A stretch of 64,000 nt of DNA from a bacterium (GTDB lineage: Bacteria; CLD3; SB21), in assembly GCA_013360215.1 (NCBI GenBank), contig JABWCP010000016.1, forward strand, positions 1 through 64,000, read 5' to 3'. Under the pieces are notes generated by a model. The model was not told where the DNA came from, made no database searches, and saw only the letters and a program-made list of their open reading frames with translations. This document shows positions 6,893 to 13,435 of the stretch, piece by piece; within the stretch, counting starts at the first letter, position 1; the number at the start of each line of letters is the position of its first letter. A program made the position numbers and the translations under genes.

Positions 6893-7096
6893 TTATTTTC
6901 CTCCGTGTTTGTATCCGTTGTTTGATACAGCGATTTCTTCGCCATCGAGCGGCATCGTTTCCATATGGTGCAGATGCCGCTTATCTATACGCACAAGCCA
7001 CGCGATCAGACCCACAAAAAAAACGAAGAAGATCACGAGCGCTATGGTCGGCCATATTTCCAGACCGCCTGCGTTTTCCAAAATGCGACGTAACAT
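6893..7096 (-). CDS. ccoQ: CcoQ/FixQ-like small cbb3 oxidase subunit
   Basis: This 67-residue protein has a single strongly hydrophobic helix (about residues 15-37) followed by a charged tail, as in CcoQ, the small subunit that stabilises cbb3 oxidase. The start ATG overlaps the stop of ccoNO (TAATG), and its stop is followed at once by the ccoP ATG. Its last codons carry the ccoP ribosome site, so the three genes are probably translationally coupled. The family is short and poorly conserved, so the call rests on size, topology and position. Confidence 0.8.
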   Translation of the reverse strand: MLRRILENAGGLEIWPTIALVIFFVFFVGLIAWLVRIDKRHLHHMETMPLDGEEIAVSNNGYKHGGK

Positions 7097-9249
7097 TATT
7101 GTTTCACCTTGATATCGGTTCCCAATCGTTGCAAATACGCGATCAAGGCAACGATTTCTTTATCCGGTGTCGTGGGAAATCCGTTTTGTGTCAAGTCGCC
7201 TGCAACAGCCGTTGCTTGCGCTCTCAAATCATTATTGGCTACCTTCTCATATCCTTTTTCATACGGCACACCTACGATCTGCATGGCCGAAATTTTCTTT
7301 TCTGTCGTTGATATATCGAGACTATTTTCAAAAAGCCACGGGTAGGCCGGCATGATCGAACCCGGTGAAATAGCTCTGGGATCCATCATGTGACTATAAT
7401 GCCATGAATTCGTGTATTTGCCGCCGACGCGATGCAAATCCGGACCTGTACGTTTTGAGCCCCATTGGAACGGGTGATCATAGACGTATTCGCCGGCTTT
7501 GGAGTATTCGCCATAGCGTTCCGTTTCGGAACGGAAAGGACGCACAAGCTGCGAGTGGCAAGTATAACATCCTTCACGGATATAAATATCACGCCCTTGT
7601 AATTCCAGCGGTGAATAGGGTTTGACACTGGCAATAGTCGGAATATTGGATTCCACTGCAAACGTAGGAACGATTTCCAAAATACCGCCGATAGCAACGG
7701 CGATCAGCGTTAAAACGATAAACGGTAAAGGCTTGCGTTCGATAAGGCGATGATAATACGATTGGCCATGTTGCACATATTCTTTAGTCAATGCCGGCGC
7801 TTCCGCTTTTTCGTCGGCAACAAACTGACCTTGTTTCGCCGTTTTGATGAGATTGTAAACCATGATAAACATGGATGCAAAGAACATCGTACCGCCGATC
7901 GAACGAATCACGTACATCGGGATGATCTGCGTTACCGTTTCAAGAAAATTAAAATATTGTAGTGTACCTTCCGGTGTGAATTGTTTCCACATCAGACCTT
8001 GCGTAATACCGGCCCAATACATCGGTACCGCGTAAAACACTATACCGAGAAATCCTAACCAAAAATGCGCGTTGGCTAATTTTTTAGAGTACAATGTGGT
8101 ATTCCACATTTTGGGTACAAGCCAGTATAAAATACCGAAAGTCAGGAACCCGTTCCATCCGAGTGCGCCGATATGTACGTGCGCGATCGTCCAATCCGTA
8201 AAGTGGCTAAGCGCATTGACATTTTTTATTGAAAGCATCGGACCTTCAAATGTTGCCATACCATAAGCGGTCACAGCAACCACCATAAATTTGATCACCG
8301 GTTCTTCACGTACTTTATCCCAAACGCCACGTAACGTAAGAAGACCATTGATCATACCGCCCCAACTCGGTGCAATGAGCATGATCGAAAAAACAGAACC
8401 CAACGATTGAGCCCAATCCGGAAGCGCACTATAAAGCAAATGGTGCGGGCCTGCCCAGATATATAAAAAGATCAATGCCCAAAAGTGAATGATCGAAAGA
8501 CGATACGAGTACACAGGACGATTAGCCGCCTTGGGCATAAAATAATACATCAATCCGAGATACGGCGTCGTAAGGAAAAACGCTACGGCATTATGGCCGT
8601 ACCACCACTGTACCAGCGCATCCTGCACGCCGGCAAACACCGAATAACTCTTGAACCATCCTGCGGGAATGGCCAGCGAATTGACGACATGCAACATAGT
8701 GACCGTTACCCATGTGGCGATATAAAACCAAATCGCGACATACATGTGGCGTTCGCGGCGCTTGATGATCGTACCGAACATATTGATACCAAATACGATC
8801 CACACGAGTGCAATGGCGATATCGATCGGCCATTCTAATTCTGCATATTCTTTACCGCTGGTAATACCAAGCGGCAAGGTGATTGCGGCCGAAACGATGA
8901 TCAGCTGCCACCCCCAAAAGTGAATATTACTCAACGTATCGCTGAAAAGCCTTGCTTTGCAAAGTCGCTGCAGCGAATAGTAGAGACCCATAAAAATCCC
9001 GTTACCGACAAACGCAAATATAACCGCATTGGTATGCAGCGGCCTGATGCGTCCAAATGTCAACCAAGGGATATTCAGGTTAAGCGCCGGCATATAAAGC
9101 TGGATGGCAATGATCACGCCGACCAGCATACCGACAATACCGAAAATAACAGATGCGATAGCAAACTTCCGCACGATACCATTGTCGTACTCAAATTGTT
9201 CGAGCCGACCTGCCACCTGCGGTTCATGCGCTACGGATGTCTTTTCCAT
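7096..9249 (-). CDS. ccoNO: Fused cbb3 oxidase subunits I and II (CcoN-CcoO)
   Basis: This 717-residue protein joins the haem-copper catalytic subunit to the monohaem cytochrome subunit, so the complex reduces O2 at high affinity with both parts on one chain. The first 480 or so residues are CcoN: about twelve helices, RPLHTNAVIFAF with the low-spin haem ligand, IWAGPHHLLYSALPDW with His ligands of the copper site, and AHVHIGALGWNG near the C-terminal end. After a helix near residue 510 comes CcoO, with GRDIYIREGCYTCHSQLVRP and the CxxCH near residue 563, and the IMPAYPW segment with the likely axial Met. The fusion is known in several FCB lineages. GGAG lies 11 bases upstream of the ATG. Confidence 0.97.
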   Translation of the reverse strand: MEKTSVAHEPQVAGRLEQFEYDNGIVRKFAIASVIFGIVGMLVGVIIAIQLYMPALNLNIPWLTFGRIRPLHTNAVIFAFVGNGIFMGLYYSLQRLCKARLFSDTLSNIHFWGWQLIIVSAAITLPLGITSGKEYAELEWPIDIAIALVWIVFGINMFGTIIKRRERHMYVAIWFYIATWVTVTMLHVVNSLAIPAGWFKSYSVFAGVQDALVQWWYGHNAVAFFLTTPYLGLMYYFMPKAANRPVYSYRLSIIHFWALIFLYIWAGPHHLLYSALPDWAQSLGSVFSIMLIAPSWGGMINGLLTLRGVWDKVREEPVIKFMVVAVTAYGMATFEGPMLSIKNVNALSHFTDWTIAHVHIGALGWNGFLTFGILYWLVPKMWNTTLYSKKLANAHFWLGFLGIVFYAVPMYWAGITQGLMWKQFTPEGTLQYFNFLETVTQIIPMYVIRSIGGTMFFASMFIMVYNLIKTAKQGQFVADEKAEAPALTKEYVQHGQSYYHRLIERKPLPFIVLTLIAVAIGGILEIVPTFAVESNIPTIASVKPYSPLELQGRDIYIREGCYTCHSQLVRPFRSETERYGEYSKAGEYVYDHPFQWGSKRTGPDLHRVGGKYTNSWHYSHMMDPRAISPGSIMPAYPWLFENSLDISTTEKKISAMQIVGVPYEKGYEKVANNDLRAQATAVAGDLTQNGFPTTPDKEIVALIAYLQRLGTDIKVKQ

Positions 9250-9254
9250 GACGT

Positions 9255-9437
9255 TTAATTCTCCGTGGATGATGAAGGGTTTGAGGTTATGTGATTTTGA
9301 TTTTCGTCTAATAGCATGCGCATCGCGGGTGTATGCGTATCTTCATACTGTCCCCTGTTCATGGCCCATAAAAATGCAGCCAAAAAACCAAACGCCAGCA
9401 TCAGGCTGACGGCGATAAGTACAACTAATATGTTCAT
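9255..9437 (-). CDS. ccoS: cbb3 oxidase assembly protein CcoS
   Basis: This 60-residue protein has one N-terminal helix (NILVVLIAVSLMLAFGFLAA) followed by FLWAMNRGQYEDTHTPAMRML, close to the CcoS signature in which a Gln-(Tyr/Phe)-Asp/Glu-Asp motif follows the helix. CcoS is needed for cofactor insertion into cbb3 oxidase. The ATG at 9437 overlaps the ccoI stop (ATGA), so the two are translationally coupled. A longer reading from 9506 would run through the ccoI 3' end and is not supported. Confidence 0.9.
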   Translation of the reverse strand: MNILVVLIAVSLMLAFGFLAAFLWAMNRGQYEDTHTPAMRMLLDENQNHITSNPSSSTEN

Positions 9438-11911
9438 ACGTTTCTTAATGAAGATATCGGTACCTCCGGTACCGTTTTTAAAAGTTGATTTTTTCTTGCT
9501 ATCCATCGAACGGCTATAACCGTGAAGGCTACCACGGAGATTGCTGAAATAGGCATGATCACTGCCGCAGCTACCGGCGCCAAAAGACCTTGCACAGCTA
9601 AAGTAACAGCCACAAGGTTATATAGTAGTGTGAGTCCGAACGCCGCGTACACTGTTTTTTTGGTTTGTCTAGCAAAAATTAAAAAACGCGCTAACTGTGG
9701 CAGCGCTTTAACATCCATGATCGCATCGGAACTCGGCGTGAACGCAGCCGTGTTTTCGGCAATCGCTACGCCCACATCGCTCTGCTTGAGCGCTCCGGCA
9801 TCATTGAGTCCGTCGCCAATCATCAAAACACGACGTCCGGACACCTGCTGCTGCCGAATAAATTGTAGTTTATCTATCGGTAATTGCCTAAAAAGCATTA
9901 CCGCACGGTTGGTAAACAATTGCTCTAGCCGATTTTTTTCACGGTCACTGTCTCCGGAGAGTACGAAAAGTTGATAGTCCTTCGGTATGACTTTGCTCAG
10001 GTATTCTGTGCCTTCTCGAAATTCTGATAAAATTGTAAAACACCCCAAAAGCGATCCATCAATCACAATATGCACCTGACTGCGTTGCGCATCACTGTAA
10101 AATGGGGAGTTTTCTGCCGACGGTAACCCTTCTAGCCATGCCAAGGAACCGATTTTCACATGATGACCATGTACGGTTGCTGTAATTCCTTTACCTGATA
10201 TTTCTTCATACCGATCAACGACATACGTTTCAACGTGATCCAGATGGTCATATACTGCACGGCTAAGCGGGTGTGTAGAATTACGAACTACGGCAGCAAT
10301 AATAGCTTGCTGTTCTTTGGTCAACGGGCTTCCTTCAAACGAAACCGATGAACTTTGCGACTTAGTCAACGTTCCTGTTTTGTCAAAAACGATCGTATTG
10401 ATCGCTGCTAGGTTTTCTACGACATGATAGTTTTTAATATAAAGTTGCTGCTCCGACAGTACGCGCAATGCGGTGCCAAATGTAAAGGGAATGGAGAGAG
10501 GTAAACCGCACCCGCAGGAAACAATCAGAACCGAAGTCACCGTGTCAATCAACATGGCCGGATCGGTCGCATACCAATACACGCCCGTCATAACGGCGAT
10601 TGTTAATACGGCCGCCGTAAAATACTTGGCCACCGTATTGGAAATATTCTGAATTCGACTTTCCGATGAACCCGTGAAGGCTTCTTGATTCCACAACTGT
10701 TGCAAATAACTTTGTGATACTTCTTTGACCACTTCCACTTCGATAGCGGAACCGGTTTGACGCCCTCCGGCAAAAATTTTATCACCCTGCATCACCGATA
10801 CAGGTATACTTTCCCCGGTAACAAAACTATAATCAATCGTCGCAATCCCATTGATCAATACGCTATCCGCCGGTATGAGCTCCTGATAACGAACAATTAA
10901 CACATCTCCAACCCGCACCTGTTCGATCGGTATCACTATGGCGGAATCGCCTGTTTTTTTCTGTACCGCAAGCGGAAAATAGGATTTCAGATTGCGTTCA
11001 AACGACAACGTATAAAATGTTTTTTTCTGAAATATTTTTCCTATCAAAAGAAAAAAAGTAAGCCCTGCCAGCGAATCCAAATAACCGGAGCCGAATCCGT
11101 GGGTGATATCCCAAAGGCTGCGAACGATCAACGTCGTTATACCGATCGAAATCGGTACGTCCATCGTGATCGTTTTTTCTTTTAGCGCATTAAATGCTGA
11201 CGAAAAAAAACCGCTCACGGCATATAGTAACGGCAGCGCTACCACGATGCTTAAATATCTAAAATAATCCCTCAGTGGCGCCTCGATCTGCCCGCCGGCA
11301 AGGTAGTCGGGTAATGCCAGCAACATAATGTTACCAAAACAAAAACCGGCTATACCTAACTTGATATATAGATGACGCTCGACGGCAGGTGCTGTAGCCC
11401 CAGCTTTATCGTGCCTTGAAAAATCGGGTTCATAACCTATCGAAGCAAGCCTTTCCGCTATCTGCCGCAATGATGTCAATCGATCATCAAATAGGATATA
11501 AGCTTCCTTACGTAGGAAATCTACACGTACCGATTGTATACCGGATTCCATTTTATGCAGATGTTCCAAAAGCCAGATGCATGCGCTACAATGAATTTGC
11601 GGTAAAAATAACGTTACACGAACACGATGATCATGTTCGAACTGTATAAATGAACTCCGTAACTCAGGTATATCCAGAAATTCATATTTAACATTAACTT
11701 TGGCTTTAGGAAGGGAGCGCGCGCCGTCTTTAAGATCGTAATATTCCCCCAGATCATGCTCGTGCAAAATTTGATAAACCCATTGGCATCCTTGGCAGCA
11801 AAATGTTTTTCCGCTGATTTGGACTGTGTCCGTATCGCAAATATCACCACAATGAATACACGTTTGCTTGGATTGAATAGTTGTTTCTGCCATAGACGGT
11901 GAGTTAGACAT
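9434..11911 (-). CDS. ccoI: Copper-transporting P1B-type ATPase CcoI with Cys-Gly-Cys membrane motif
   Basis: This 825-residue heavy-metal P-type ATPase is the copper exporter that supplies cbb3 oxidase. It starts with a Cys-rich metal-binding domain (CIHCGDICD near residue 18, CCQGC near 38), then an HMA-like domain with CSACIWLLEH near residue 109. The core follows: VTGES near 367, DKTGTLT near 510 (phosphorylated Asp), STHPL in the nucleotide domain and GDGLNDAGAL near 698. The transmembrane ion site, normally Cys-Pro-Cys, reads SCGCGLPLSIPF near residue 468, so the proline is replaced by glycine. All other catalytic motifs are intact. No good ribosome site is seen before ATG 11911. Confidence 0.93.
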   Translation of the reverse strand: MSNSPSMAETTIQSKQTCIHCGDICDTDTVQISGKTFCCQGCQWVYQILHEHDLGEYYDLKDGARSLPKAKVNVKYEFLDIPELRSSFIQFEHDHRVRVTLFLPQIHCSACIWLLEHLHKMESGIQSVRVDFLRKEAYILFDDRLTSLRQIAERLASIGYEPDFSRHDKAGATAPAVERHLYIKLGIAGFCFGNIMLLALPDYLAGGQIEAPLRDYFRYLSIVVALPLLYAVSGFFSSAFNALKEKTITMDVPISIGITTLIVRSLWDITHGFGSGYLDSLAGLTFFLLIGKIFQKKTFYTLSFERNLKSYFPLAVQKKTGDSAIVIPIEQVRVGDVLIVRYQELIPADSVLINGIATIDYSFVTGESIPVSVMQGDKIFAGGRQTGSAIEVEVVKEVSQSYLQQLWNQEAFTGSSESRIQNISNTVAKYFTAAVLTIAVMTGVYWYATDPAMLIDTVTSVLIVSCGCGLPLSIPFTFGTALRVLSEQQLYIKNYHVVENLAAINTIVFDKTGTLTKSQSSSVSFEGSPLTKEQQAIIAAVVRNSTHPLSRAVYDHLDHVETYVVDRYEEISGKGITATVHGHHVKIGSLAWLEGLPSAENSPFYSDAQRSQVHIVIDGSLLGCFTILSEFREGTEYLSKVIPKDYQLFVLSGDSDREKNRLEQLFTNRAVMLFRQLPIDKLQFIRQQQVSGRRVLMIGDGLNDAGALKQSDVGVAIAENTAAFTPSSDAIMDVKALPQLARFLIFARQTKKTVYAAFGLTLLYNLVAVTLAVQGLLAPVAAAVIMPISAISVVAFTVIAVRWIARKNQLLKTVPEVPISSLRNV

Positions 11912-11941
11912 TTTTTTGTTAGACGGTTTCGAAATTACAAT

Positions 11942-11974
11942 GAGGATAAAGGAATCCTCTGTCAGAATTTCTGA
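11942..11974 (-). promoter_or_regulatory. Inverted repeats at the start of the cbb3 operon leader
   Basis: TCAGAATTTCTGA (11962-11974) is a perfect 6+1+6 palindrome at the predicted transcription start, where a repressor could bind. Just downstream, GAGGAT (11942-11947) and ATCCTC (11954-11959) can form a 6-bp hairpin in the leader RNA. Both are visible directly; their function is inference. This and the two neighbouring regulatory entries cover the 396-bp gap 11912-12307, in which I see no gene. Confidence 0.4.
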
Positions 11975-11980
11975 TAACTA

Positions 11981-12009
11981 ATTATAATTTTTTTACAATT
12001 CCTTCTCAA
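11981..12009 (-). promoter_or_regulatory. Sigma-70-type promoter of the cbb3 oxidase operon
   Basis: The minus strand reads TTGAGA (12004-12009), a 17-base spacer, then consensus TATAAT (11981-11986). The predicted start lies near 11974, giving a leader of about 63 nt before ccoI. A 19-bp imperfect palindrome AAAGATG-TGAAT-CATCTTT (12008-12026) overlaps the upstream edge of the -35 box, where an activator or repressor could act. No clear FNR consensus (TTGAT-N4-ATCAA) is present. Confidence 0.65.
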
Positions 12010-12220
12010 AGATGTGAATCATCTTTAAGTATGACTTTTATCAGGCAATATCGTTTTTTCATTAGATTAATTATCATAAGATGAAGTTTTATTTATATTT
12101 AAATAAATTTAAACAATTAAAATAAACTACATTCCTGATTTAATACCATTTATATAATACATGATTTCAGATGTTTTTTAGAGTTAATCAATTTTGGTTG
12201 GAATAAATTTTAAAAATAAA

Positions 12221-12258
12221 TGTTGCAACATTAGGTGTTATAACATATATTAACCTAA
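12221..12258 (+). promoter_or_regulatory. yceI promoter with two overlapping palindromic operators
   Basis: TTGCAA (12223-12228), a 17-base spacer and TATATT (12246-12251) form a good sigma-70 promoter about 50 bases before the yceI start. The -35 box lies inside the perfect palindrome TGTTGCAACA (12221-12230). A second perfect palindrome, TGTTATAACA (12236-12245), ends exactly at the -10 box. Their centres are 15 bp apart. The arms TTAGGT (12231-12236) and ACCTAA (12253-12258) form a further inverted repeat across the -10 region. Such an arrangement fits repression by a dimeric regulator; the MarR-type gene downstream at 12986 is the obvious candidate (inference). Confidence 0.6.
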
Positions 12259-12307
12259 TTAGTTCATAATCCACTTAACCGTTCTAAACATAAACAGGAG
12301 TTACCAG

Positions 12308-12892
12308 ATGAATCGCATGATGGTTTTTGCCGCCGCATTGCTTATCAATGTAAGCGCATTTGCACAGTCCAATTGGGGTGTTGATGTTTCTCACTCCAAT
12401 GTTCTTTTCACAGTTTCCCACCTTGTTGTTTCCGATGTACAAGGCTATTTCAAAGAATTTGATGCAACCCTAGGTTACAGCAAAGAAGATTTTTCTGATG
12501 CTACCGCTACGATGACCATCAAAGTCAACAGTATCAATACGGGAATCGAAAAACGCGATGCACACCTTAAAGCTGACGATTTTTTTGCGGCCGACAAATT
12601 TGCTGACATTACATTTGCAAGCAAATCATTCAAAAAAACCGGTAAAAACACGTTTAAAATAACCGGCGATCTCACTATGCGTGGTACCACTAAAACCGTG
12701 GAATTAGACGCTGTGTATCGCGGCGAGATCAAAGATCCGTGGGGCAATACCAAATCCGGCTGGAAAATCAATGGCACCGTCAATCGTTTTGATTACGGCC
12801 TCAAATGGAATGCCGCAATGGAAACAGGTGGACTTGTCGTAGGAGAAAATGTTGATATTACCATTAACCTCGAAATGGTAAAAAAGAAATAA
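12308..12892 (+). CDS. YceI family periplasmic lipid-binding-like protein
   Basis: This 194-residue protein has a signal peptide (cleavage likely after AFAQ, residue 20) and one YceI domain. Landmarks are WGVDVSHSNVLFTVSHL at the start, the DFFAADKFADITFAS motif near residue 94, GDLTMRGTTKTVELD near 119, and NRFDYGLKWN near 160. YceI proteins are lipocalin-like barrels that bind polyisoprenoids in solved structures; their physiological role is often unclear, with links to stress and acid/base response. A strong AGGAG site precedes ATG. It is a single-gene unit: an operator-laden promoter upstream, a strong terminator downstream. Confidence 0.92.
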   Translation: MNRMMVFAAALLINVSAFAQSNWGVDVSHSNVLFTVSHLVVSDVQGYFKEFDATLGYSKEDFSDATATMTIKVNSINTGIEKRDAHLKADDFFAADKFADITFASKSFKKTGKNTFKITGDLTMRGTTKTVELDAVYRGEIKDPWGNTKSGWKINGTVNRFDYGLKWNAAMETGGLVVGENVDITINLEMVKKK

Positions 12893-12912
12893 ACCCCCTT
12901 TTCCCCTTATAT

Positions 12913-12950
12913 AAGAGGCGACGCAACTTCGGTTCGTCGCCTCTTTTTTA
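12913..12950 (+). terminator. Intrinsic terminator after yceI
   Basis: A 9-bp GC-rich stem GAGGCGACG/CGTCGCCTC (12915-12923 with 12935-12943), with an 11-base loop, is followed by TTTTTTA. It lies 22 bp past the yceI stop and should stop most readthrough into marR. Confidence 0.9.
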
Positions 12951-12985
12951 TTTAATATCACTCATAGTTTTTTTACATTAATACC

Positions 12986-13435
12986 ATGCGTATCGAAGAG
13001 CGAATACATCAAAAGAAATTTCGTAACGAATACCATAAGCTTTTAGCTAATATCGCCTACCACCATCACTGGCTTATGGTCGAGCAACAAAAATTACTGA
13101 AACCGTTTGGCATTTCATTTACTCAATGGAATGCCTTAAGTATCTTACGCGGCCAATATCCCCATGCGGCTTCGATTCTTTTGATCAAAGAACGCATGAT
13201 TGATCAAAGTTCGGATGTGTCACGTTTGGTTTCACGATTATTACATAAAAAATGGGTTACGCGAACTACTTGTCCGAAAGATCGTCGTCAGGTTGATGTC
13301 GTCATAACACAAAAAGGCCTTGACCTGCTTGCTCAGATTGATCCCTTAGCTGAACAATTTGAAAGCCTGATTACTCATCTTGACGAAAAAGATGCGCAAT
13401 TGGTTAATAGCATCATGGATAAATTGAGAAAGTAA
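12986..13435 (+). CDS. MarR family transcriptional regulator
   Basis: This 149-residue protein has the winged helix-turn-helix layout of MarR dimers. An N-terminal helix is followed by FGISFTQWNALSIL near residue 46, recognition-helix region SSDVSRLVSRLLHKKWV near residue 75, and the wing with the family signature CPKDRRQVDVVITQKG near residue 93. MarR proteins usually repress nearby genes and release DNA on binding a small ligand or on thiol oxidation. The palindromes on the yceI promoter are a plausible target. No good ribosome site is visible; its own promoter was not identified. Confidence 0.9.
   Translation: MRIEERIHQKKFRNEYHKLLANIAYHHHWLMVEQQKLLKPFGISFTQWNALSILRGQYPHAASILLIKERMIDQSSDVSRLVSRLLHKKWVTRTTCPKDRRQVDVVITQKGLDLLAQIDPLAEQFESLITHLDEKDAQLVNSIMDKLRK

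Follow-up and report, generated by a model that had tools for sequence, protein, structure and literature searches.

The analyzed stretch of bacterial DNA, hereafter the window, is 64,000 nucleotides long. Slightly beyond its 12-kb position, a gene for a YceI family protein is followed on the same strand by a gene for a MarR family regulator, and the DNA upstream of yceI carries two palindromes superimposed on a promoter-like sequence. The features considered here are the following.

12219..12232, no strand: putative operator site 1, a perfect 14-bp palindrome AATGTTGCAACATT with the core TGTTGCAACA at 12221-12230, over the -35 region and at the same offset in relatives
12223..12251, plus strand: putative core promoter TTGCAA-17-TATATT, a consensus match only in the window, overlapped by the operator
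12236..12245, no strand: putative operator site 2, TGTTATAACA, 15 bp from site 1 and abutting the -10 box
12308..12892, plus strand: yceI, YceI family (PF04264), 194 aa, with an N-terminus that by eye resembles a signal peptide
12915..12949, plus strand: terminator-like hairpin with a T-run between yceI and marR; 12915-12950 folds at -18.9 kcal/mol
12986..13435, plus strand: marR, MarR family (PF01047), 149 aa, presumed to bind the operator

Profile searches support both family assignments, with 147 bits for the YceI protein (cut-off 23.7) and 30 bits for the regulator (cut-off 24.6). None of 11 NCBIfam equivalog families (SlyA, MprA, HpaR, MarR, OhrR and others) reached its cut-off for the regulator, the best score being that of SlyA, 36.4 bits against the 120 needed. 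An AlphaFold2 model of the regulator (pLDDT 91.1, pTM 0.80) matched E. coli MarR in complex with operator DNA (5h3r_B; Z 15.8, 137 aligned residues, rmsd 2.6), and DNA-bound structures of MarR, MftR, PecS and MepR were among its matches. As modeled, the protein has the winged helix-turn-helix fold of MarR regulators complete with dimerization helices, a fold that alone shows no function. Binding of an isoprenoid or another lipid-like ligand is a trait of the YceI family. The physiological role of YceI proteins is called unclear in the available part of one report (PMC5350466).

On the minus strand, a divergent cluster (7096-11911) encodes a CcoI/FixI-like copper P-type ATPase, identified with Pfam. 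Two more ORFs of this cluster were judged by eye: a small one is CcoS-like, and one of 717 aa looks like a fusion of a cbb3 oxidase catalytic subunit with a cytochrome c subunit.

The initial annotation had described two perfect 10-bp palindromes with a 15-bp centre spacing, locked onto a TTGCAA-17-TATATT promoter, and both palindromes were located in the sequence with exactly this spacing. The left one overlies the -35 hexamer (12223-12228) and the right one ends where the -10 hexamer (12246-12251) begins, the promoter-like pair itself ending 56 bp before the yceI start codon. The left palindrome grows symmetrically to 14 bp, whereas the right one does not extend beyond its 10 bp. The same annotation had marR following yceI immediately. 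The gene is indeed downstream, but it starts 93 bp past the yceI stop codon, behind the hairpin, so that simple cotranscription may not hold in this genome and autoregulation of marR in the window is doubtful. The hairpin, which is absent from the output of a simple terminator scan, consists of a 9-bp stem, a bulge, 3 further base pairs, a TTCG loop and the T-run. In six of 12 YceI–MarR loci, marR starts 6-19 bp after the YceI match; in two of the loci described below (L036 and L038) it lies 6-15 bp past yceI, unlike in the window. In one related genome (G006; L004, L010), marR appears by eye to have its own promoter, TTGACC-17-TATTAT, 40 bp before the gene; this promoter ends near the ATG, and the mRNA may be leaderless.

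How much of this arrangement could be due to chance? Single TGTTNNAACA words are not significantly enriched in the window (3 found, mean of 1.76 expected; 22 of 100 shuffles reach 3), and neither are sigma-70-like hexamers, of which 2 were found in a 1.1-kb stretch against 4.9 expected. The tandem pattern with up to two mismatches occurs once, against a mean of 0.04, a count reached by 4 of 100 shuffles. For the pair without mismatches, a first-order Markov model of the window predicts 4.7e-5 occurrences per 64 kb and 0.0027 per genome; the 3.72-Mb genome contains one. Allowing two mismatches, the yceI site remains the sole match genome-wide, and no further pair targets were found in this genome at that threshold; since the reversed-pattern control also gives one match, two-mismatch matches in the genome are at background level. 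A coincidence of palindromes, or an RNA element in place of an operator, would agree with the chance-level frequency of the single words. Set against this are the very low expectation for the pair, its conservation across phyla and its position upstream of the presumed transcription start, in a region (11900-13200) where no Rfam match was found. We therefore reject chance as the origin of the pair and discard the RNA element; taken together, they retain practically no probability.

The phylum of the window was represented by nine genomes; throughout, yceI starts were set mechanically. A close YceI homolog (E <= 1e-20) is encoded in six of the nine, and in all six a gene for this MarR adjoins it: in the window, in four genomes at 49-62% identity, and in G008, where the contig ends within marR. 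A genome of the same family that lacks YceI (G005, 85% complete) also lacks the MarR, and two genomes of another family have no such YceI and only a MarR relative at 31-36% identity. The pair was expected upstream of yceI orthologs if it is functional, and in all five readable genomes of the family, the window included, two copies beginning with TGTT precede yceI at a 15-bp period. Outside the window these read TGTTATAACA-TTAAA-TGTTTAAACT (G004), TGTTTAACCG-TTATA-TGTTTGAACA (G006), TGTTTAGACG-TTATA-TGTTTAAACG (G007) and TGTTTAACCG-TTATA-TGTTTAAACA (G008), and the three latter genomes show a left copy with a largely decayed right half. G004 has a second yceI (L008) with no TGTTNNAACA in the 400 bp upstream and no MarR search match on its contig.

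A scan of named genomes with an alignment of this MarR subfamily left 80 loci, judging by their titles largely from Bacteroidota, Ignavibacteria and Chlorobi. YceI is detectable by tblastn near the MarR gene in only 12 of them; in one more (L109), Pfam recognized a more distant YceI. Defining the pair by at most two mismatches in 16 fixed bases, we found it at the 15-bp spacing in 39 of the 80 loci. The reversed pattern gave 2 loci, and shuffling of two-base blocks, which does not strictly preserve dinucleotides, gave 1. When the centre spacing was set to other values between 11 and 30 bp, 0-7 loci matched, the 7 belonging to 30 bp, which is twice the period. The 39 loci contain 41 matches, every one of them upstream of the MarR gene. 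From 14 loci whose best match had three mismatches, eight were added by eye on the basis of context, giving 47 of 80; several of the remaining 33 have little upstream sequence, and three (L035, L040 and L007) have no upstream DNA at all. In two loci from metagenome-assembled genomes, L036 and L038, assigned by title to Chlorobiaceae and Melioribacteraceae, respectively, both palindromes are letter-identical to those of the window. Where yceI is duplicated (L037), the site precedes the first copy, and where the target gene is not yceI the position of the operator is unchanged. The motif thus tracks the MarR subfamily even where YceI is absent, which supports the regulator proposed by the initial annotation. 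From the sequence relationships, the pairing of operator and regulator is well supported, and the palindrome pair is very probably the landing site of the adjoining MarR protein.

Alignment of 57 distinct sites, with duplicates dropped and three-mismatch loci included, defined the anatomy of this operator more closely. Selecting sites by their number of mismatches exaggerates conservation at the 16 fixed columns; the flanks, the spacer and a box at +25 played no part in the selection. Among such unpicked columns, A at -3 (88%), T at -4 (79%), T at +10 (81%) and A at +14 (84%) are conserved as well. The box at +25 reads TAnnTTTG, which we take to be the Bacteroidota -7 element, in 25 of the 57 sites and TAnnTT in 11 more (36/57). 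The twin operator thus occupies a constant position relative to the core promoter. It is this box after the operator in relatives that backs the promoter call, for which the hexamers in the window alone would be insufficient.

Are both palindromes needed? It could be that only site 1 is a true operator, occupied by one dimer on a palindrome of 14-16 bp, and that the likeness of site 2 arises from constraints on the -10/-7 region. Site 1 indeed has the stronger consensus (15.5 bits vs 11.8 for site 2, both inflated by picking) and the 14-bp extension in the window, and it is kept in three MarR-linked yceI loci (L070, L075 and L100) where site 2 is degenerate or absent. Yet the TGTT of site 2 is held at exactly 15 bp though the -10/-7 box does not require it, with G at +16 present in 57 of 57 sites (a column used for selection), and G006-G008 retain site 2 better than site 1. 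On balance, a single-site operator appears unlikely. The idea in the initial annotation that one dimeric regulator binds twice fits the strict 15-bp period, as far as spacing can tell.

The DNA pattern and the yceI genes also served as starting points. A gene-blind search with the pattern TGTTGCAACNNNTNNTGTTNNNACNTA at zero mismatches matched four of 395 genomes from the phylum of G017 (control 0), in all four cases before a relative of the window MarR. One of these is the MarR operon L088, already in the set above; the other three (L125-L127) are new, and each precedes a yceI-marR pair, with MarR proteins 52-65% identical to that of L036. In 20 MarR-bearing genomes, a one-mismatch search returned 11 matches in 10 genomes (control 0), of which 10 are MarR-operon sites; the other 10 genomes, including those of L037, L039 and L054, whose sites differ, were unmatched by this strict pattern. 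An extra one-mismatch copy of the operator (L124, G014:C82:5971-5997) has no recognized MarR or target gene within 1.9 kb; the same genome has another copy at its MarR operon.

Thirty yceI loci from 61 genomes were divided into 12 in which yceI is followed by this MarR and 18 in which it is not. With up to three mismatches, the pair precedes nine of the 12 but only two of the 18 (Fisher p 0.0012), and with up to two mismatches, six and one (p 0.0086). Two of the 12 (L128 and L137) were known from the MarR-first scan, and without them the count is 7/10. Three MarR-followed genes (L132, L134 and L138) have nothing similar to the pair upstream, and in L135 the match is placed further upstream, at -134. 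Weaker MarR-like matches, at 28-32% identity, occur at other places in three of the 18 loci (L139, L141 and L143); in L143, one of the two loci of this group with the pair, a distantly related MarR is encoded upstream. Conservation before orthologous yceI genes, to which the initial annotation had tied its reading, was therefore found in four designs: with orthologs of the family, MarR-first, gene-blind from DNA, and YceI-first with a comparison group.

The comparison group itself provides an argument for a different regulator, of the CRP/FNR, TetR or some other type, encoded elsewhere, with the MarR neighbor being incidental. A single exact TGTTNNAACA lies within 250 bp upstream of seven of the 18 Bacteroidota yceI genes without this MarR (L143, L145, L151, L152, L154, L155 and L156), where about 0.1 would be expected in all, although the seven are not all independent, as L151, L152 and L155 look alike. 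The palindrome is thus not exclusive to linked MarR genes and also occurs before yceI genes whose regulator is elsewhere or unrecognized, a possible sign of an unlinked regulator with the same specificity. On the other hand, the pair follows the MarR subfamily where other genes replace yceI, and MarR neighbors were present in four of four genomes of the gene-blind search. That the MarR gene is a mere bystander is therefore, in our view, highly improbable.

We consider it likely that the palindromes constitute a twin MarR operator at which two dimers repress yceI, with an electrophile- or quinone-type signal as the more tentative means of their release. Without inducer, one MarR dimer would sit on each palindrome, 15 bp apart. 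With site 1 over the -35 region and site 2 against the -10 box, RNA polymerase could not load, and yceI would be silent. In response to an inducer, most likely a quinone or another electrophile, MarR would let go and YceI would be made. The sequence comparisons establish the anatomy, its statistical significance, the conserved 15-bp spacing, the promoter position and the link to the MarR subfamily in different phyla and with different target genes; that MarR binds and represses, that two dimers are involved and what kind of compound induces release is our inference. Some MarR-family proteins are activators, and the same sites might in principle serve to activate yceI. A protein covering the -35 region and touching the -10 box would be expected to exclude RNA polymerase, and MepR, which has the same layout at mepA, is a repressor according to the accessible part of its description (PMC3617543). 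Activation would accordingly come as a considerable surprise.

The genes controlled by the sister operators may provide clues to the signal. After manual removal of five ORFs and addition of four, we clustered the 94 proteins encoded between operator and MarR gene in 47 loci; families were assigned by running Pfam on a single member of each of the ten largest clusters. The larger clusters are DoxX (24), YceI (9, two of them in L037), nitroreductase (9) and CDGSH iron-sulfur proteins (9), followed by an 80-residue protein without a family (8), pirin (7), small thioredoxin (7) and FMN reductase (6). TehB-like methyltransferases (5), LigB-type dioxygenases (3) and seven singletons make up the rest. 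The protein of about 80 residues (eight copies, among others in L065, L057, L088 and L053) is mostly encoded beside the small thioredoxin, and its representative has no Pfam or NCBIfam match. In Bacteroides fragilis, pirins are described as oxygen-induced and FurA-independent in the iron response, in the part of that study at hand (PMC11304471). Only yceI lies downstream of the operator in the window; nitroreductase, FMN reductase and LigB dioxygenase belong to the sister operons.

The ligand- or redox-controlled switch suggested by the initial annotation would follow from the MarR family together with this operon content. A conserved thiol switch across the subfamily is not supported by the alignment: C96, the candidate redox cysteine, is present in nine of 14 YceI-linked MarR proteins, the one in the window included, but in only six of 67 others, while C121 is found in 51 of the 67 and in one of the 14. 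No single cysteine thus accounts for the subfamily, and we reject a universal redox cysteine.

MarR repressors with paired sites are already known as a kind. For the twin operator and its regulon, no earlier description was found in the literature searched, which was covered mostly by title and included few subscription journals; nor did the letters of TGTTGCAACA turn up on this subject by title among the matches listed. The closest layout is that of Staphylococcus aureus MepR at mepA, where, in the available text, a high- and a low-affinity site overlap the -35 and -10 regions and the repressor may bind as two dimers (PMC3617543). MepR thus resembles the yceI system in being a MarR-family repressor with paired sites over -35/-10. 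It differs in its GTTAG motif, found by eye on neither strand of 12219-12251, in its efflux-pump target and in sequence, the window MarR being 18% identical to it over the model.

The nearest published MarR regulator that we found for Bacteroidota is BmoR of Bacteroides fragilis. As far as the accessible text describes it, it represses the gene just upstream of its own, binds in gel shift experiments and is involved in redox balance (PMC6158253). The repressor type, the phylum and the placement of the target are shared with the yceI system, whereas the operator of BmoR is a single site with TTTCC repeats and the gene it controls encodes a pyridine nucleotide-disulfide oxidoreductase. Given the operator and target described there (PMC6158253), we do not regard BmoR as the same system.

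With regard to function, the MhqR, QsrR, YodB and CatR repressors of Firmicutes are similar. In the portions of the sources available, their targets include nitroreductases, quinone or azo reductases and ring-cleaving dioxygenases (PMC6798810, PMC12893000), and these MarR-type repressors have target families in common with the sister operons, whose content resembles the quinone regulons of MhqR and QsrR. The MhqR operator is one 9-9 bp inverted repeat, TATCTCGAA-aTCGAaATA, at -6 to +12, and residues F11, F39, E43 and H111 are given for the MhqR-type ligand pocket (PMC6798810, PMC12893000). Here, by contrast, TGTTNNAACA occurs twice, and YceI is not among the targets of MhqR, QsrR, YodB or CatR named in those portions. 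A regulator beside a YceI-family gene is known from Burkholderia xenovorans: MgxR (Bxe_B3018), whose effector in the accessible text is methylglyoxal (PMC4349456). It shares with the window this neighborhood, and its effector is an electrophile, but its operator, of the GAATGATCGTTC type, is unrelated (PMC4349456).

It is the likeness of the sister-operon enzymes to MhqR, YodB, CatR and QsrR targets, together with this methylglyoxal-responsive regulator beside a YceI gene, that points to a quinone or another electrophile as the inducer. This is the weakest step of our model, and we advance it tentatively, as falling somewhat short of an even chance. We are similarly guarded about a broader proposal, which we regard as possible without leaning toward it: that the MarR subfamily is an undescribed family of electrophile- or quinone-stress regulators in Bacteroidota, Ignavibacteria and the small phylum of the window, with the tandem operator TGTTGCAACA-N5-TGTTnnnAC and with operons that form one detoxification repertoire. 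If so, YceI would be a quinone- or isoprenoid-binding part of an electrophile/quinone response. YceI is widespread, and a regulator shared with redox, possibly quinone-handling, operons turns its signal into a testable hypothesis. The operator, with its fixed bases, spacing and promoter offset, is precise enough to predict the regulon in Bacteroidota.
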